Below are positions 13,483 through 23,130 of a DNA stretch of 43,948 nt, one piece after another (position 1 is the first letter of the stretch; every line of letters begins with the position of its first letter). Source of the stretch: Propionibacteriaceae bacterium. GTDB taxonomy: Bacteria; Actinomycetota; Actinomycetes; Propionibacteriales; Propionibacteriaceae. The DNA lies in contig JADGPA010000028.1 of the NCBI GenBank assembly GCA_017882685.1, positions 1 through 43,948 of the forward strand, given 5' to 3'. A program made the position numbers and the translations under genes. Under the pieces are notes generated by a model, which had not been told where the DNA came from, ran no database searches, and was given only the letters and a program-made list of their open reading frames with translations.

Positions 13483-14076
13483 TCACTCGGGAGCGACGGT
13501 CAGCACCTGATCGACCACCCCGTAAGCCACCGCCTGCTCCGGCGTGAGGATCAGGTCCCGCTCGGTGTCCTCCCGCAGCTGTTCCGGTGTCCGCCCGGTG
13601 TGGGCGCTGAGCAACTGCTCTTGCATCGCCCGCACCCGTGCCACCTCGTCAGCCTCGAGGATCAGGTCGGGGATGGTCCCGCGTCCCTCGGTGGCGGGGG
13701 CGTGGATCACCACCCGGCCGTGCGGCAGGATCTGCCGGTGCCCCGCAGCCCCACCTGCCAGCAGGACAGCCGCGCTGGCCACCACCTGTCCCACGCATGT
13801 GGTCTCCACCGGCGGACGGACGAACTGCATCGCGTCATAGATCGCCAGCGTCGCCGGGATCGAGCCACCGGTGCTGTTCAGGTACAGCGAGATCGGGGTG
13901 TCCGGGTTGTCGTTTGCCAGGTGCAGCAGTTGCGCGATCACCGCATTGGCCACCCCGTCGTCGATGCCCGTCCCGAGGTAGATGATTCGGTCGGCCAAGA
14001 GTCGGCTGTAGATGTCGACCGTCCGCTCGCCCGCGTTCGTGCGGGTGGTGACGTAGGGAATCGTGTAGCTGCTCAT
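13483..14076 (-). CDS. ClpP-family subunit (ClpP4-like) with Ala at the catalytic Ser position
   Basis: 197 residues with the full ClpP/crotonase fold: FSRLL-like IYSRLLADRIIYLGTGIDDG, LYLNSTGGSIPATLAIYDAM, VGQVVASAAVLLAGG, LPHGRVVIHAPA and EDTERDLILTPEQAVAYGVV. The His (125) and Asp (174) of the triad are present. In E. coli ClpP Ser97, His122 and Asp171 are 25 and 49 residues apart; in this protein residue 125 minus 25 is Ala100 (codon GCC at 13779-13777), with Ser101 next to it. The proline in NSPGGS is also changed to Thr. It may be a catalytically dead partner in a mixed ClpP3-ClpP4-type complex. It is the second gene of the operon, starting in an ATGA overlap with the active paralogue. 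Confidence 0.85.
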   Translation of the reverse strand: MSSYTIPYVTTRTNAGERTVDIYSRLLADRIIYLGTGIDDGVANAVIAQLLHLANDNPDTPISLYLNSTGGSIPATLAIYDAMQFVRPPVETTCVGQVVASAAVLLAGGAAGHRQILPHGRVVIHAPATEGRGTIPDLILEADEVARVRAMQEQLLSAHTGRTPEQLREDTERDLILTPEQAVAYGVVDQVLTVAPE

Positions 14077-14690
14077 GCCGTCTGCCCCAATCCGATGGTG
14101 CGGCTGCGTCCTGGCAAGACGTCGGCCAGGGTCGTGATGATGTGGTCGACGAAGCCATACTCGAGCGCTTCGGCGGCGTCGAACCAGCGGTCGCGACGCG
14201 AGTCGGCCTCGACGCGGGCCACCGGTTGCCCGGTGTCCTCGGCGATGCAACCAAGGACGGTGTCGCGCGTGCGCCGCAGGTCGTCGGCCTGGATCGCGAT
14301 GTCCATGGCCGTGCCGCCGATGCCGCCAGAGCCCTGGTGCAGCAGCACCCGCGCGTGCGGCATCGTGTAGCGCCTCCCAGGCGTGCCGGACGACAGCAGG
14401 AACTGGCCGGCGCTGTAGGCCATGCCCAGGTTGATCGTCGCCACGTCGTTCGGGATGGCCCGCATGGTGTCGCGGATGGCGAGCATGCCGGGCACCGAGC
14501 CGCCGGGGGAATTGATCAGGAAGCGGATGTCGGTCTTCGGGTCGCTGGCCGACAGCACCAGCAGCGCGTTGCACAGCCGGTTGGTGTTCAGGTCCTCCAG
14601 GGGTTCGCCCAGCAGGATCGTGCGTTGCTCGAACAATCGGTCGTACAGCTCGTGGTCAAGGTGGAGCAGCGAGCCAGTGGTTTCACTCAT
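14073..14690 (-). CDS. clpP: ATP-dependent Clp protease proteolytic subunit (ClpP3-like)
   Basis: 205 residues; forms the barrel peptidase used by ClpX/ClpC ATPases for protein degradation. The triad is intact and correctly spaced: Ser93 in GMAYSAGQFLL, His118 in PHARVLLHQG and Asp167 in DSRRDRWF. The NSPGGSVPGMLAI oxyanion strand is present. I chose ATG 14690 (MSETTGSLLH) with GGGGGA before it, rather than a longer in-frame extension that covers the promoter region and contains the palindrome at 14731-14747. It is first in a two-gene operon. The AYSAGQFLL wording and pairing with a second ClpP fit the ClpP3/ClpP4 lineage of Streptomyces, not the essential ClpP1/ClpP2 pair. Confidence 0.9.
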   Translation of the reverse strand: MSETTGSLLHLDHELYDRLFEQRTILLGEPLEDLNTNRLCNALLVLSASDPKTDIRFLINSPGGSVPGMLAIRDTMRAIPNDVATINLGMAYSAGQFLLSSGTPGRRYTMPHARVLLHQGSGGIGGTAMDIAIQADDLRRTRDTVLGCIAEDTGQPVARVEADSRRDRWFDAAEALEYGFVDHIITTLADVLPGRSRTIGLGQTA

Positions 14691-14730
14691 TCCCCCAGCG
14701 TCCCCGCGGTCGGTCGGCAACGGGAGGCCG

Positions 14731-14747
14731 TGCTGCTGTCGGCAGAT
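14731..14747 (-). promoter_or_regulatory. PopR-box-like palindrome upstream of the clpP operon
   Basis: TGCTGCTGTCGGCAGAT fits, at 11 of 14 arm positions, the palindrome TTCTGCC-N3-GGCAGAA that I remember as the PopR operator at Streptomyces clpP3. It lies 41-57 bases before the clpP start. A few bases further upstream the minus strand reads GGTTCGCCGACGGC (14763-14750), close to the ClgR box GTTCGC-N5-GCG but with the last G missing. The regulator encoded next door has the matching family traits. Confidence 0.5.
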
Positions 14748-14896
14748 CAGCCGTCGGCGAACCGGGAACTGTCCGCGCGGGTCTTGGTAGTGCAGCCCGC
14801 GTTGGGCCGTATCCAATGCCGGCTCGATGAGCACGACCTGCCGGTCGTCCAGCCCTGAGTCTTGGCGCACGCCCGTTGGTGGGTGATCATTGCCCG

Positions 14897-17785: not shown

Positions 17786-17793
17786 GGTCGGTA

Positions 17794-17827
17794 GCCGCGG
17801 CGGCGACCCCCCACACACCGCCGCGGC
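17794..17827 (+). terminator. GC-rich hairpin after the ABC-F gene
   Basis: GCCGCGGCGG (17794-17803) pairs perfectly with CCGCCGCGGC (17818-17827) around a 14-base loop, starting 8 bases after the ABC-F stop codon. There is no U-tract; the position and stability suggest an actinobacterial-type terminator that separates ABC-F from the S8-CHAT operon. Confidence 0.55.
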
Positions 17828-17877
17828 CCGTCCTGGTCGCTCCCCCCGAATCGTCCAGGCCGTCCGACCATGCCCGT

Positions 17878-18031
17878 CAGAGTGCTCAGGTAGGCGCGTG
17901 ATACATCGCGGTGATCGCTCTCATCCATGGGCATGAACGCCGTCGTGTATCAGAGTGCTTACCGGTGTCTCTACCCAGGTGAGGATGTGGCTGCATAGAG
18001 TGCGGTCACAGCCGGACTCAGGAGGTTCCCC
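17878..18031 (+). promoter_or_regulatory. Probable control region of the S8-sigma-CHAT operon
   Basis: Between the terminator and the GTG at 18032 are a direct repeat CAGAGTGCT (17878-17886 and 17951-17959) and an inverted pair TGATACA (17899-17905) and TGTATCA (17946-17952). A strong Shine-Dalgarno CAGGAGGT (18019-18026) precedes the start. The repeats may be sites for the operon's own sigma factor or for another regulator; I cannot pick a defined -35/-10 pair. Confidence 0.4.
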
Positions 18032-19603
18032 GTGATCCGAGTGCTCGACCCCACCACCGCCATCGTGCGTCCCGACCAGGAGATCGGCGACACCGTCTAC
18101 ATCTCCGACCGCCTCCTCGTGCGCGGCGACCAGCTCTGGACGCCGGACGCACGTGTCACGGGCGTGCTGAAGCGGCTCGGGCTTGGCTTGCGCCCACCGG
18201 CGCGCTATCGCGACTTCAAGGAGATTCCGCACCGGCCTGAGCGCGACCGGCAGTACGGGCTGGAGTCGGAGCAGGTCGTCGGTCTCGAACTGGTCGTCAT
18301 CGACCCGGCGGGCGCGCAGGCGCCTGATGCGTGGAACGTCCTGCAGCAGATCCGCATTGCGGCCCCCGATGTCGCCCGGGCCTTCGAGCTCGTGCACGTG
18401 CTGTTCGCCACGTCAGGGGAGCTGTCCGGCGTCGGCAAGGGTGGCAGCCACGTCCCCGGCATCGGCAAGGGTGGCAGCCACGTCCCCGGCATCGGGATGG
18501 GTCCCGACGAATTCGGCGTACCCGGCTACGGCGGCAAGGCCCCGGTTGCTGTGGTGATGGCCGACCCGTCCCGCACGGCCCCGCGCCTGAACCGCCCACC
18601 GGTGGTTGTCATGCCGGACACCGGCATCGGTGACCACCCCTGGTTCCCGGACGAAGCTGTCGTCGGCGTCAACGCCGCACCCCCGGCATCGCTGGGGGTC
18701 CAGATCGTCGGCGATCCCGTCGCCGACCGTGGCACGGGGATCACCTCGCGGCTGACCGGCGAGTTCGACCGGCTCGCCGGTCACGGCACGTTCATCGCCG
18801 GCCTCGTCCGCCAGACCGCGCCTTCCGCGCGGCTGCAATCGCAAGCGATCATGACTTCCGACGGTCTCGCGGCGGAGGACGACGTTCTCGAACTCCTGCA
18901 GGACCTGCTGGATGACCAACTGAAGGCGCTCGCCACCAACGACGCCGCATCGATCGTCGACGTGCTGACCCTGTCCTTCGGGTGCTACCACGAGGACCTC
19001 GCGGACGAGGACAGCGACCCGTCCGGGCTTACCGCGACCAACTTCGCCACGATCCTTCGTGACCTGGGCAAGGTCGGAATCCTCATCGTCGCCGGGGCCG
19101 GAAACGACGCCACGTCGCGTCCGTTCCTGCCGGCCGCCTTCGCCGGCAGCACCGACACCGGCAGCGGCGCCCTGCCGCTGGTCAGCGTCGGTTCGCTCAA
19201 TCCGAACCAGAGCAAGGTCTCCCTGTTCTCCAACAGCGGCACGTGGGTCACCACCTACCGCCACGGGGCTGCGATCGTCTCGACGCTGCCGCGCAAGCAG
19301 AACGCCAGCAGCCAGGCCTCCGCCGACGTTGCCGGCATCGACACCCTTCCCGGGGCCGAGCAACAGGGCGTGATCGCCGGCACGGCACCACGTCCGCCGG
19401 ACCGGGCGACGATCGACCTGGACGACTACACCAGCGGCTTCGGCGTCTGGAGCGGCACGTCGTTCGCTGCCCCCGTCCTTGCCGGGCAGCTCGCCCACGC
19501 CATCTCCATGCTCGGCAGCGAAGCGACCGACCTCACCTCGATGCAGAAGCGTGGTTGGGACGCACTCGCCCGCGTCCTGCACCCGAAGAGGCTGCTGCGA
19601 TGA
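18032..19603 (+). CDS. Cytosolic subtilisin-like S8 peptidase, first gene of the CHAT operon
   Basis: 523 residues without signal peptide or membrane helix. The S8 triad is complete: Asp196 in VVVMPDTGIGDHPW, His251 in GHGTFIAGL and Ser477 in GVWSGTSFAAPVLAG; Asn358 in VAGAGND is the oxyanion residue. Residues 1-130 form a domain of unknown type rich in beta strands and acidic helices. A glycine-rich linker (about 132-168) contains two exact copies of GKGGSHVPGI, encoded by a 30-bp tandem duplication. The stop overlaps the sigma-factor start (ATGA), so the two are translated together. I infer an intracellular, possibly zymogen-like protease acting with the CHAT protease encoded downstream; substrates are unknown. 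Confidence 0.88.
   Translation: MIRVLDPTTAIVRPDQEIGDTVYISDRLLVRGDQLWTPDARVTGVLKRLGLGLRPPARYRDFKEIPHRPERDRQYGLESEQVVGLELVVIDPAGAQAPDAWNVLQQIRIAAPDVARAFELVHVLFATSGELSGVGKGGSHVPGIGKGGSHVPGIGMGPDEFGVPGYGGKAPVAVVMADPSRTAPRLNRPPVVVMPDTGIGDHPWFPDEAVVGVNAAPPASLGVQIVGDPVADRGTGITSRLTGEFDRLAGHGTFIAGLVRQTAPSARLQSQAIMTSDGLAAEDDVLELLQDLLDDQLKALATNDAASIVDVLTLSFGCYHEDLADEDSDPSGLTATNFATILRDLGKVGILIVAGAGNDATSRPFLPAAFAGSTDTGSGALPLVSVGSLNPNQSKVSLFSNSGTWVTTYRHGAAIVSTLPRKQNASSQASADVAGIDTLPGAEQQGVIAGTAPRPPDRATIDLDDYTSGFGVWSGTSFAAPVLAGQLAHAISMLGSEATDLTSMQKRGWDALARVLHPKRLLR
18432..18491 (+). repeat. Exact 30-bp tandem duplication in the S8 peptidase linker
   Basis: Bases 18432-18461 and 18462-18491 are identical and in frame, each encoding ten residues around GKGGSHVPGI. 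Degenerate flanking pieces (GIGMGPDEF, GVPGYGG) suggest earlier units. Perfect identity points to a recent expansion or a unit prone to slippage. Confidence 0.85.
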
Positions 19604-20163
19604 ACACGTCGCTCGGCGCCCAGGCTGCGAGCGCGTTCGTCGCCTACCGGGAGGGTGACCGTGGCCAGTTGCGGACGTTGGTGACACTGCTGACTCCGCT
19701 GCTGTGGCATACCGCGCGGGCCCAGAACGCAACCAAGGAAGTGGCAGAGGACGCAATCCAGACCGCCTGGCTGCGCCTGGTGGACGCCGCCGACAGCATC
19801 ACCGACCCGAAGGGTGTGGTCTCCTGGCTGGTGATCACGGTCAAGCGGGAGAGCTGGCGACTGTTGCGGCTCGCCGGGCGTGACGTCACCTCTGAGTGGG
19901 GCGTACCGGAGACGGCAGACGAAACCACGCCGGAGGACCTCGCGATCACGTCCGACCAGCAGCGGCTCCTTTGGGGCCACGTGAACGACCTGCCCGAGCG
20001 CTGCCGCACCCTGTTGCGGGTGATCGCCTTCGCAGCGAGTCCCGACTATGCCGGGGTCGCTGCCAGCCTCGGCATGCCGGTGGGCAGCATCGGCCCCACC
20101 CGGGGACGCTGCCTGGCCAGGCTGAGATCAATGCTTCTTTCCGATCCGAGTTGGGAGGCCTGA
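19600..20163 (+). CDS. ECF-type sigma-70 family RNA polymerase sigma factor
   Basis: 187 residues. Region 2 lies around EVAEDAIQTAWLRLVDAAD and VVSWLVITVKRESWRLLR (about 45-90); region 4 around LPERCRTLLRVIAFAASPDY and SLGMPVGSIGPTRGRCLARL (about 130-180). Regions 1 and 3 are absent, as in ECF sigma factors. The start codon ATG overlaps the S8 stop (ATGA). The next gene starts 1 base after its stop. There is no typical transmembrane anti-sigma gene; the following 155-residue soluble protein is the best candidate for a controlling partner. It probably transcribes its own operon and perhaps further targets. Confidence 0.88.
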   Translation: MNTSLGAQAASAFVAYREGDRGQLRTLVTLLTPLLWHTARAQNATKEVAEDAIQTAWLRLVDAADSITDPKGVVSWLVITVKRESWRLLRLAGRDVTSEWGVPETADETTPEDLAITSDQQRLLWGHVNDLPERCRTLLRVIAFAASPDYAGVAASLGMPVGSIGPTRGRCLARLRSMLLSDPSWEA

Positions 20164-20164
20164 A

Positions 20165-20632
20165 ATGCCCCAGGAGAACTACCCGGGAGCAGACGCCCCG
20201 ATGGACGCGACCGACGAGCGCATCCTCGTCGGCTTGGCGACCCTGTACGACGCCATCGACCCGATGCCGTCCGACCTCGTGGACCGGATCGACTTCGCAC
20301 TCGCCGTCGCCGAGCTCGAGGCCGACATCGCAGAGCTCACCCGTGGCGAACTGGTCGGCGTCCGCAGCGAGGAGACCGACTCGGTCACGTTCACCAGCGG
20401 CTCCCTGAGCCTGATGGTGACAACGGTGCGCTCGGCCCACCACGTGCGGGTCGACGGCTGGGTGACCAGCCCCGGCGCCGACGTGGACGTGGTCGGTGAG
20501 GGCGTCACCCGCACCGTCACAGCCGACGCAGGAGGACGCTTCTCGCTCGACGAGATTCCGCGGGGCCGCGCCCACTTCGTGGTGCGCCGCGAAGGCTACC
20601 GTCCGGTGATCACCCCGTCGATGGAGATCTGA
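20165..20632 (+). CDS. Small acidic protein with carboxypeptidase-regulatory-like domain; possible sigma partner
   Basis: 155 residues, no signal peptide or membrane helix. The N-terminal half (MDATDERILVGLATLYDAID, PMPSDLVDRIDFALAVAELE) is a helical acidic segment like those found at the start of anti-sigma-type proteins. The C-terminal part (about 95-150: VRVDGWVTSPGADVDVV, GGRFSLDEIPRGRAHFVV) has the beta-sandwich wording of carboxypeptidase-regulatory-like domains. It lies between the sigma factor and the CHAT protease, which makes it a candidate anti-sigma factor, protease substrate or adaptor (inference). It starts with ATG 20165, one base after the sigma stop, with GGGAGGCC before it. 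Confidence 0.75.
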   Translation: MPQENYPGADAPMDATDERILVGLATLYDAIDPMPSDLVDRIDFALAVAELEADIAELTRGELVGVRSEETDSVTFTSGSLSLMVTTVRSAHHVRVDGWVTSPGADVDVVGEGVTRTVTADAGGRFSLDEIPRGRAHFVVRREGYRPVITPSMEI

Positions 20633-23130
20633 CGGCGTCGGCAGAGCGCGGAGACCCACTCGCCCGCGCCCGGGAGCTCCGGCTCGCGGGCCTGGCCGAC
20701 AACTCCGCCGGACGCCCGGTGCGGGCCGCCCGCAAGCTGCGGACGGCCCTCAAGCTGCTGGATACCCAGCCTTCCTCGCACGACGTGGACGTGGTCCGCG
20801 TGGCCTGCCTGCTCACCCTTGCGATGGCCGAACTCCTCTCGGCGGGCCTCGACGCAGCGACCGGCCGTCTCGCCGAAGCCGCGGAGGTGGCCGGGAACGA
20901 CCCGGAACTGGTGGCACGATGCCGCTGCCAACGGGGAATCGTGCTCGTGCGCACCGGAGACTTCGCCCAGGCAGCACGTGAACTCGATGCCGTTGAACTG
21001 CAGTGGTTCACGGCCCGGGAGCGCGCCGCCATCCGGGTGAACCGTGGCGTCATCAACTTCGAGCTGGGACGGCCGGCGGACGCGGAACCCGAGTATGCGG
21101 CGGCAGCCCGCCTCGCCGCCGAGGCGGGCGATGAGCAGTTGCGCTACATGGCCGAGTTCAATCGCGGGTACGCCAGCTACCTCACCGGCGACCTGCCGGG
21201 AGCCCTGTCGCGAATGGCGGCGGCGGAGGCGATCGAGGCCGACGTGTACCGGGGGACGTCACTGTTCGCCCTCGCCCGCGTGCTCGGCGAGGCCGGGCTG
21301 CTCGACCAGGCTCTCGAGACCCTCGATCGCGCTCAGGCGGCGTCCCACCAGGGTGACCGCATTCTGCGCGCCGAGATCGAGCGGGAGCGCGCCGTGCTCC
21401 TGCGACTGACCGGGGAGTTCGCCGACGCGGCCCGGGCGGCGCGCGCAGCCAAGGCTGCCTTCCACCGACTGGACGCGCCTGATCCGGAGGCGGCCGCTGC
21501 GCTGATCGCCCTGGATTGCGACCTCAGCCGCGGTCGGAGGCTGCCTGAGGTGCTCCTCGGCGCTCTCGCGCACGAGACCATGGCGAGGGAGTTCGGGGAC
21601 AGGGACCTGATTGCCCGCAGCATCGCAGTTGCCGCGGAGGCCGCGTCACGACTCGGGCGACCCGACGTGGCAAGCGCTGCACTCCGCCGGTATCCGAAAG
21701 AGTCCCACGGCTTGGTGATCCACCTGCGACACGTCTACGCCGCCGCTGTGACAGATGTCGCCGCCGGGCGCTCCCCGCGACGCCGGCTGGCAGCGGCAGC
21801 CGCAGACCTCGCCTCGAGCCAGGCCACCAGCGGGTCGCTCGACTCCCGCGCCGCCCGCAAGGTGCTCAGCCTGCGGCTTGCAGCGCTCGACATCGGCCTC
21901 GCCGTCGACCACGGGCCCACCGACGTGCTGCGCACCCTCGAACGCTGGGCCAAGGGGTTGCCCGCCGTCCGTCCTCCCGCTGATCCGCATCAGGCGGAAC
22001 TCACGCAGCGGCTGAGGTCGTTGTCGCAGGCGCTCCGCGACGAGCCTCAGGCGCCGGAGGCAGCGGCCCATCGTGCAGAGTCGGCGCGGCTGCAGCGCCA
22101 GCTCACCGACCTGGGTCTGGCGCAGCGCCAACAGGACACGGCCGGTGCTGCCGTCCCCGAACTCGGCGAAGCACTGGCCGGCATCACCGCCGCCGGCCGG
22201 GACCTGGTGTGGTTGTTCCCGCATGATGGCGGGCTGTGGGGTGTCGGGGCGGTCGCCGGACGCCGCCGGCTCACCAGGCTGGCCGACCTCGACCGGTGCC
22301 TGGAGGCAGCGCGGCGGCTCCAGGCCGACCTGCGGGCAGCGGCGCACCGGCCCGGCGGCCCGCTGCGGGAAGCGATCGATTCCTCGCTGGCCACCGGGCT
22401 GGACTGGCTGGACGAGGCCGTCGTCCGGCCGTGGCGGTTGCGCTCGCCCGGGCTCGTCGTGATCGGCACGCACGCCGTGTCGTCTGTGCCGTGGGGCCGA
22501 TTGCCGTCGCTGGCCGGCCTGCCGGTGACGGTCGCCCGCTCTGCCACCGAGTGGGCGGCGCATCGCTCGGCGTCGGCTTCTGCCTCGGTCGCCGTGCTGA
22601 CCGGGCCGGGACTCAATCACGCCCAGGCGGAGGCCACGCAGGTCGCCGCTGCCTGGCCCGGCTCCCGGCTGGTCTGTGACGCGCGCGCGGCCGACCTGGT
22701 CTCAGCCCTTGCCGGCGCCGACGTCGTGCACGTCGCAGCCCACGGCCAGCACCAGCCGTCGAGCCCGCTGTTCTCCTCGCTGCGGATGGCCGACGGTGAC
22801 GTCTACGCGCACGAACTTCCGGCGGGTGCGATCCGGGCGCGCCACGTTGTGCTGTCGGCCTGTGACGTCGGGACGGCCCAGGTGCGACCCGGCGACGAGC
22901 CGCTAGGGCTGGCCCACACCCTGCTCGCGACCGGGGTGACCTCCGTGGTCGCTGCGGTCGCTCCCGTTCCGGACGACGAGACCGCAGCCGTCATGGCGGC
23001 CTACCACCATCGGCTGGCGGCGGGCCAGCCCAGCGACGAGGCCCTCGCAGGGGCCGGCGCGGGCTCGGCTTTCGTCGTCCTTGGCTCCAGTTGGGCGGCG
23101 ACAGCTCTTCCCGAGGCGGGCATCAAGTAA
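20629..23130 (+). CDS. TPR-CHAT caspase-like protease
   Basis: About 833 residues. The first half consists of helical TPR-like repeats (ARARELRLAGLADNSAGRP, AARKLRTALKLLD, NRGVINFELGRPADAEPEY, YLTGDLPGALSRMAAAEA, GLLDQALETLDRAQAA). The C-terminal CHAT domain (about 515-830) is a caspase/separase-type cysteine protease with His705 in VHVAAHGQHQ and Cys745 in VVLSACDVG, both at the expected ends of strands. It has no signal or membrane segments. The start is unusual: no ATG, GTG or TTG is available before 20719, yet residues encoded from 20632 on already look like a TPR helix, so I place the start at CTG 20629 in a CTGA overlap with the preceding stop. GTG 20719 is the alternative (803 residues). 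Likely the sensor-effector protease of the operon. Confidence 0.85.
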   Translation: MTASAERGDPLARARELRLAGLADNSAGRPVRAARKLRTALKLLDTQPSSHDVDVVRVACLLTLAMAELLSAGLDAATGRLAEAAEVAGNDPELVARCRCQRGIVLVRTGDFAQAARELDAVELQWFTARERAAIRVNRGVINFELGRPADAEPEYAAAARLAAEAGDEQLRYMAEFNRGYASYLTGDLPGALSRMAAAEAIEADVYRGTSLFALARVLGEAGLLDQALETLDRAQAASHQGDRILRAEIERERAVLLRLTGEFADAARAARAAKAAFHRLDAPDPEAAAALIALDCDLSRGRRLPEVLLGALAHETMAREFGDRDLIARSIAVAAEAASRLGRPDVASAALRRYPKESHGLVIHLRHVYAAAVTDVAAGRSPRRRLAAAAADLASSQATSGSLDSRAARKVLSLRLAALDIGLAVDHGPTDVLRTLERWAKGLPAVRPPADPHQAELTQRLRSLSQALRDEPQAPEAAAHRAESARLQRQLTDLGLAQRQQDTAGAAVPELGEALAGITAAGRDLVWLFPHDGGLWGVGAVAGRRRLTRLADLDRCLEAARRLQADLRAAAHRPGGPLREAIDSSLATGLDWLDEAVVRPWRLRSPGLVVIGTHAVSSVPWGRLPSLAGLPVTVARSATEWAAHRSASASASVAVLTGPGLNHAQAEATQVAAAWPGSRLVCDARAADLVSALAGADVVHVAAHGQHQPSSPLFSSLRMADGDVYAHELPAGAIRARHVVLSACDVGTAQVRPGDEPLGLAHTLLATGVTSVVAAVAPVPDDETAAVMAAYHHRLAAGQPSDEALAGAGAGSAFVVLGSSWAATALPEAGIK

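Follow-up and report, generated by a model that had tools for sequence, protein, structure and literature searches.

The window, that is, the whole stretch of 43,948 nucleotides analysed here, is a single contig of the 2.98 Mb draft genome of a Propionibacteriaceae bacterium. It hosts four tightly packed genes, encoding an S8 subtilase, an ECF sigma factor, a small third protein and a TPR-CHAT protease (Table 1), at the positions assigned to them by the initial annotation. The S8 and sigma genes overlap by 4 bases, and a gap of 1 base separates the sigma gene from that of the third protein. The start of the CHAT gene is ambiguous: its earliest ATG, GTG or TTG codon is the GTG at 20719, and the residue numbering of the initial annotation (His705, Cys745) fits the CTG at 20629, which gives a 4-base overlap with the stop of the preceding gene. 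Since the CHAT homologue of a related locus (L034) starts with an ATG 5 bases past the stop of its own third-protein gene, we favour the upstream start. Two further features, absent from the initial annotation, are a divergent pair of promoter-like sites upstream of the S8 gene and a 30-base tandem repeat within it, which encodes an array of identical peptides.

Table 1. Features of the window, and trypsin-like protease genes of related Cellulomonas loci (positions within each locus)
Feature	Position	Strand or orientation	Remarks
Candidate small RNA (G-loop RNA), two hairpins, GGGGGG loops	17790..17870, ends approximate	-	Predicted fold
Divergent promoter-like site GTATCA-N16-CTCTG	17878..17904	-	Towards candidate RNA; last base off CTC[CT][AT]
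Operon promoter-like site GTATCA-N16-CTCTA	17947..17973	+	Motif search upstream of S8
S8 subtilase, pro-subtilisin-like	18032..19603	+	GTG start; prodomain about residues 1-126; triad D196/H251/S477
Tandem peptide array GKGGSHVPGI x2	18426..18502	+	S8 residues about 135-155; prodomain/catalytic linker; 30-base DNA repeat
ECF sigma factor (ECF54 context)	19600..20163	+	Profile matches; context as in PMC8999054
CRD protein (two helices and seven-strand sandwich), constant sigma companion	20165..20632	+	Pfam, AF2 model, linkage
TPR-CHAT protease	20629..23130	+	CTG 20629 or GTG 20719 start; catalytic His705/Cys745
Cellulomonas PFTE-array trypsin-like proteases	L133 5539-7572, L144 5898-7664, L152 5862-7733, L117 1-1380	Divergent from sigma	

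In Pfam, the S8 protein matched Peptidase_S8 (PF00082) with 41.9 bits (cut-off 21.8) and the CHAT protein matched the CHAT domain with 82.6 bits (cut-off 24); in a profile search of PDB sequences, the latter also matched TPR chains as well as the CHAT chain 8rot. The sigma factor scored 32.6 bits against Sigma70_r2 (cut-off 24), with no Pfam match in region 4, and 48.1 bits against the NCBIfam model TIGR02937 (sigma70-ECF, cut-off 42.9), which covers residues 24-179 including region 4 and bears out the two sigma regions originally described. The third protein reached 31.6 bits for CarboxypepD_reg, just under the cut-off of 32.3. According to Pfam and to an AF2 model (mean pLDDT 88.8, pTM 0.56), it is made of two helices and an Ig-like, carboxypeptidase-regulatory-like domain, and we refer to it as CRD. 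A fold search with this model returned no PDB match below E 1e-3, and neither Pfam nor NCBIfam returned a match to an anti-sigma family. The active sites are intact: Asp196, His251 and Ser477 of the S8 protein are invariant in alignments of 21 and 49 rows, and so are His705 and Cys745 of the CHAT protein in the 21-row alignment, in agreement with the triad and dyad first proposed. By eye we saw no signal peptide in any of the four products, as had already been noted; a look at their Pfam matches revealed no exporter, and no natural fusion among the four proteins was found at E under 1e-10.

The subtilase resembles I9-type pro-subtilisins in having a prodomain fold and then an S8 domain with an intact triad. 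This reading is based on the AF2 model (mean pLDDT 81.4, pTM 0.86) and on a mixed set of Foldseek matches to subtilisins and pro-subtilisins, including unprocessed pro-subtilisin E (3whi) and fervidolysin (1r6v), with TM-scores of at most 0.42 among the 50 matches listed. Residues 131-171, which form the array linker, fall under pLDDT 50 between a confident prodomain and the S8 domain. Unlike I9-type enzymes, the protein has no Pfam match to the I9 prodomain family (PF00082 was alone at E up to 1), is apparently cytosolic and carries the array at the junction.

Across genomes the four genes are kept as a unit, and their linkage, on which the initial annotation had staked its interpretation, is strong. 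With the window protein as single query, CRD was detected in 5 of the 21 genomes of a search among relatives, its own genome counted, and in at least 48 of 296 genomes sampled from the class, with one match per genome; these units are therefore common in actinobacteria. We examined the loci of 42 of the 48 positive genomes, leaving out the six weakest. The 45 CRD-anchored stretches (the window and L034-L077) comprise a sigma factor in 44 cases, S8 in 28 and CHAT in 28; one of these CHAT matches, that of L063, is by our reading a TPR regulator and was not counted as CHAT. When the search was anchored on sigma factors, all four genes were present in 69 of the 80 loci taken as the best of 590 relatives, and CRD in all 80. 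Several of the remaining 11 loci, of which 7 have no S8 match, 2 have neither S8 nor CHAT and 2 lack CHAT, are cut by contig ends.

Gene order varies. Among 123 loci, the order S8-SIG-CRD-CHAT (where SIG denotes the sigma gene) occurs in 61, SIG-CRD-S8-CHAT in 24, SIG-CRD alone in 18, SIG-CRD-CHAT in 7, and others in 13. L034 and L078 are from one genome, and L034 was left out of these counts as well as of the array, promoter and frame-blind repeat counts below. All 18 genomes with no CHAT beside SIG-CRD, a few of whose stretches stop at contig ends, encode a CHAT of this family elsewhere, in one case (G081) in two pieces on two contigs. The distant CHAT adjoins S8 in 16 of these 18 genomes, and in the other two its contig ends nearby. 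Five of the split loci (L187, L188, L190, L191 and L192) have two tandem short-form S8 genes beside CHAT, and L124 holds parts of a second unit, with two CHAT and two CRD matches around one S8 and one sigma gene. In relatives of the window, trypsin-like proteases whose tails bear cysteine repeats of the CPTLACPTRAC type lie beside the unit (L080 4473-6830; L034 4611-6362, the same gene as in L078).

The peptide array was first noticed when S8 homologues were aligned, as a tandem repeat in the long forms. It was seen in 80 of the 101 sequences with E under 1e-60, and in nearly all of these 80 its site is the junction of prodomain and catalytic domain. Arrays hold 2 to 12 copies of a unit of 5-12 residues, which is 6 residues long in 58 of them, 7 in 12 and 5 or 8-12 in the rest. 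After merging rotations we counted 60 distinct units, such as GYGSGV, GYGDGI, GWGQGI, PYYAGV, PYLAGV, GYWGGV, NPFTRT, NPFHST, PFTRGA, GETHGV and the GKGGSHVPGI of the window. Most units, as we read them, combine one or two bulky, often aromatic residues with Gly, Pro, Ser or Asn. They differ across lineages and are nearly identical within one protein, even though the DNA copies have diverged. Short S8 forms, which make up most of 19 further sequences (E up to 1e-25) kept outside the 101, have no array, and many of them have one CPATEP-like motif at its position.

Comparison of adjacent units gave 20, 9 and 727 mismatches at codon positions 1, 2 and 3, out of 1948 each, in arrays that were chosen by peptide identity and are hence biased to identity. 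In frame, 1207 codons were the same, 726 synonymous and 15 nonsynonymous, and the other five frames gave 220-728 nonsynonymous codons. A frame-blind search for DNA repeats (87 of the 101 S8 genes) returned 106, 117 and 613 mismatches at the three positions. The counts of both searches indicate that the peptide of each array copy is under selection, and they show that slippage of the DNA cannot by itself account for the repeats.

To identify the likely reader of the array, we compared the similarity of array units with that of the partner domains in 63 of the 80 array loci (units of 5-7 residues, partners long enough), including L099, where the repeat picked was another one upstream. The correlation was highest for the CHAT protease domain (r = 0.714), followed by the S8 catalytic domain (0.683), CRD (0.673), TPR (0.669), sigma (0.593) and the S8 prodomain (0.417). 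Partial correlations given all others, in which the Mantel controls removed shared ancestry incompletely, were 0.296 for the CHAT protease domain, 0.207 for the S8 catalytic domain, 0.168 for CRD, 0.02 for TPR, 0.001 for the S8 prodomain and -0.207 for sigma. The difference between CHAT and S8 lies within error (bootstrap interval -0.02 to 0.078), and with the 47 distinct units the two coefficients were 0.66 and 0.633. We conclude that the array belongs to the module and is probably read by CHAT; self-processing of S8 may be an alternative to CHAT as the array cutter.

Natural replacements of the adjacent subtilase also occur. Five Cellulomonas loci with no adjacent S8 (L117, L121, L133, L144 and L152) retain CHAT and carry instead a divergent trypsin-like protease, which in L133 scores 23.1 bits for Trypsin_2, below the cut-off of 27.6. 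In L133, L144, L152 and L117 these proteases contain arrays of the tetrapeptide PFTE interrupted by short spacers such as ALGAN; the gene of L117 is cut by the contig end with the array still visible, and that of L121 is cut before the array part. The replacement is incomplete in C. biazotea (L121, genome G314), since a long S8 with an NPFHST array is encoded away from its SIG-CRD-CHAT locus (L196). This is the one genome, among 7 with no adjacent S8, that has a long S8 elsewhere. In two draft genomes (L111 and L147, the latter cut upstream) we found neither S8 nor a trypsin-like protease.

In Knoellia sinensis (L118), a trypsin-like neighbour of S8 holds four copies of GWGDGI, the exact unit of the S8 array, in a comparison where a swapped-unit control expects 0.04 genes. 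In the loci checked, exact 6-residue units of an S8 recur in no further gene of the same locus, and a 5-residue case in L078 is near chance (control 1.38), so that sharing of units with other genes of the locus was set aside as a general feature. We also discarded the array as a genome-wide substrate tag: in all 12 genomes examined for it, the pattern NPFxxxNPF is confined to the S8 array (29 matches; none with the reversed pattern). Two looser unit patterns, one over 13 genomes with sizeable reversed-pattern controls and the other in 9 of 10 genomes, hit mainly S8 arrays, together with scattered places and a few tandem clusters. Such clusters include GWSSGV-like tandem units outside the S8 array on three contigs (C1, C4 and C5) of the genome of L157 (G339) and another on contig C1 of G352.

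The promoter-like site upstream of the S8 gene recurs in other loci. A looser pattern, TATCA-N14..18-[CG]TC[CT][ACT], is found in 30 of 86 S8-first and 27 of 66 SIG-first upstream regions (57 of 152), in 0 of 11 CRD-first and 0 of 31 CHAT-first ones and in 48 of 5000 random windows, the sorting by first gene being mechanical and allowing one locus to count twice. The strict form, GTATCA-N14..17-CTC[CT][AT], is located ahead of the first gene in 46 of 79 loci with an array and in 6 of 44 others, and the promoter therefore does not serve the whole family. In total, 106 strict matches lie within loci: 32 before S8, 23 before SIG, 26 before other genes, several of which are short and doubtful assignments, and 25 before no called gene. 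At the 55 sites before S8 or SIG, the spacer is 16 bases in 46 and 17 in 9. Over 23 genomes, GTATCA-N14..16-CTCCT gave 52 matches, compared with 14 for the reversed control. In 9 of these genomes one copy stands before SIG and another past CHAT, at a distance of 5.2-5.6 kb, and in 2 genomes two copies are divergent; many of the remaining matches fall outside the unit and may be chance. In the genome of the window the genus pattern matches twice, once at the operon site. This co-occurrence suggests that the sigma factor of the unit uses the GTATCA promoter.

Genes behind other copies of the motif include second subtilases (L120, L134 and L138 by Pfam, L143 by our reading), trypsin-like proteases scoring below the Pfam cut-off (L133 and L157) and two look-alike large proteins (L147 4127-6298, with no Pfam match, and L137 11840-14017). 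A protein of about 105 residues just past CHAT has its own promoter copy in three loci (L037 5917-6234, L051 4079-4384, L132 13162-13500). We considered it as a chagasin-like inhibitor and dropped the idea, which has no support in Pfam (a weak ORF126-like match).

Sites that precede no called gene are followed by G-rich stretches. We analysed 23 of the 25, setting aside two in L132 that lie before SIG and before the small protein. The 170 bases past these sites contain on average 3.30 runs of at least four G and 0.35 C-runs, whereas 4000 random windows average 0.71 and 0.74. At least two G-runs in excess are seen at 21 of the 23 sites and in 9% of the background; this excess is absent from all 54 sites before S8 or SIG and present at 11 of the 26 that precede other genes. 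Ahead of S8 the bias is reversed (2.10 C-runs and 0.61 G-runs). RNA-like sites are present in 30 of 79 array loci and in 1 of 44 others.

In the window, the candidate RNA is predicted to fold into hairpins at about 17859-17832 and 17827-17794 with three G-runs unpaired, and the first hairpin is kept in a relative (L035). The divergent site that faces it is a weaker copy of the promoter, in which the last base of the -10 differs, and it is not one of the 106 strict matches. Across the 23 stretches and the window, 37 of 79 G-runs are unpaired in the predicted fold. In alignments of 4 and 5 sequences, both partners have changed in 16 of the 49 and 13 of the 52 pairs predicted; with the promoter bases left out, the counts become 9 of 27 and 10 of 41, and a terminator-like stem accounts for five of these last 10. 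A search of the window against Rfam at gathering scores gave no match. A role of the small RNA as a sponge of 6C RNA was rejected, as 6C reached its cut-off in none of 7 genomes and gave weaker matches in 2.

Part of this gene association is already known. ECF54 sigma factors have been described in a conserved context of carboxypeptidase-like, subtilase and CHAT genes, whose proteases were proposed to hold the sigma factor in an inactive state (PMC8999054, section 3.3). We assign the unit to ECF54 by gene context, not by the ECF54 model: the sigma factor has regions 2 and 4 (TIGR02937), the expected genes surround it, and CRD falls just under its Pfam cut-off. The statement of the initial annotation that no function is described agrees with our literature search, which found none for the unit, and needs amending in that the association itself was published with a proteolysis proposal (PMC8999054). 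That proposal is degradation of the sigma factor with no anti-sigma factor, and section 3.3 holds nothing on arrays, promoter or RNA. Among the titles and beginnings of abstracts searched, with subscription literature mostly outside, the array, the promoter and the RNA were nowhere described and apparently are new.

The closest parallel for the switch is Csx29-Csx30-CASP-sigma of type III-E CRISPR loci, in which, as outlined in PMC10028731, a TPR-CHAT protease cleaves the inhibitor of an ECF-type sigma factor and releases it, as we propose here for CHAT, CRD and sigma. The unit differs from it in several respects. Its CHAT protein scores 19.7 bits against the Csx29 model NF041237 (cut-off 300), CRD has no NCBIfam match at E 1 (a Csx30 model may lie outside NCBIfam), and it has an extra subtilase with a peptide array. 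The repeat search revealed no CRISPR-like direct repeats in the window, where the two repeat families are the S8 array and one chance-like pair; the claim that the system is independent of CRISPR is upheld to this extent. Other related CHAT systems are the SAVED-CHAT/prokaryotic caspase cascades. Short peptides are combined with TPR proteins in RRNPP systems, and subtilases act on repeated core peptides in the cyanobactin proteins PatA/PatG; here, in contrast, the array is inside the protease and no exporter or maturation gene is found among the four.

We tentatively read the unit as a self-contained cytosolic proteolytic sigma switch in which CHAT recognises and cuts the array, a reading to which we grant somewhat less than an even chance. 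Linkage, intact active sites, the array with the selection on it, the promoter motif and the RNA-like stretches are evident from the sequences; who binds or cuts what, and the order of the steps, we infer. The sigma factor would drive the operon that encodes it by way of a GTATCA-N16-CTCYW promoter. Further copies of this promoter would serve the small RNA, be it divergent or downstream, as well as additional proteases in some lineages. CRD would hold the sigma factor and be the target of proteolysis. S8 would be made as an inactive pro-subtilisin, with the array of identical short peptides tethering the prodomain to the catalytic domain. The TPR-CHAT protease would cut the array and free S8, one or both proteases would destroy CRD, and the freed sigma factor would close a positive feedback loop. 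Such feedback is suggested by the motif before the first genes of the module and, in 9 of 23 genomes, by another copy that follows about 5.3 kb later, beyond CHAT.

A further version, in which array and reader CHAT co-evolve as a coded lock, the home CHAT alone opens the zymogen, and sigma factor, proteases and G-loop RNA share one promoter, is possible but rather doubtful. We know of no described counterpart to a coded protease switch of this kind that amplifies itself inside the cell. Should the array be a protease-specific lock, orthogonal protease-substrate pairs could be drawn from it. Array, promoter and RNA together make an annotated but mute cluster a testable circuit: the array points to the likely substrate region, the promoter is usable as a reporter and the natural swaps lend themselves to tests of specificity.

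In the published reading of ECF54 (PMC8999054, section 3.3), direct degradation by the proteases holds the sigma factor at a low level, with no anti-sigma factor involved. We consider this unlikely, though CRD, in matching no anti-sigma family in Pfam or NCBIfam, speaks for it. Against it, no pair is as constant as sigma and CRD, which occur together in 80 of 80 loci (the best 80 of 590 relatives); in 18 of 123 loci the two stand without the proteases, as would be expected of a partner that binds sigma, and the promoter motif suggests feedback induction. The array might instead be a homotypic assembly motif, whose identical units cluster S8 and same-unit proteases and activate them by proximity. 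The bulky, often aromatic residues of most units, their identity within a protein and divergence between lineages, and the unit common to S8 and a trypsin-like protease in one genome (L118) would all fit; but the array sits at the prodomain junction, its unit similarity tracks the CHAT protease domain and short S8 forms do without it, and we hold this explanation to be fairly improbable. Hexapeptide size, multiple copies, selection on each copy and lineage divergence recall pheromone precursors, as if the array were a store of identical peptides cut out as a lineage-private signal. With no exporter in the look among the four proteins, no signal peptide by eye, and a partial r of 0.02 for the TPR part, the expected peptide sensor, such a signal seems quite improbable.

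An anti-phage or abortive-infection unit is very improbable, the least probable of these explanations. It draws on the action of a TPR-CHAT protease in type III-E CRISPR, as outlined in PMC10028731, and on a weak PADLOC match of the CHAT part to BovA (25.5 bits, PADLOC giving no cut-off). Each of the 48 positive genomes has a single CRD match, notwithstanding the parts of a second unit in L124, and the surroundings offer no convincing defence neighbour. The nine neighbours in the window are two Clp proteases, an AlkZ-like glycosylase, an ABC ATPase (by our reading ABC-F), a small DUF6290 protein, GNAT, ApbA, GH38 and alanine dehydrogenase. PADLOC matched the ABC ATPase alone, with mad3 as best model (159 bits), which we take as generic ATPase similarity. 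Over 142 loci, the recurring neighbours that could be named by eye, among many unnamed, are the housekeeping genes ABC-F, thymidine kinase and ribosomal L10 and L7/L12. A function in phage defence, one of the two outcomes suggested by the initial annotation, is possible and unsupported; stress death, the other one, likewise has no support. The rest of that interpretation is supported: the unit is conserved, and control of the sigma factor by a protease is an economical reading of it. The pair of Clp proteases lies at 13483-14870 on the minus strand, about 3 kb upstream of the unit, and its products are possible partners in the turnover of sigma or CRD.
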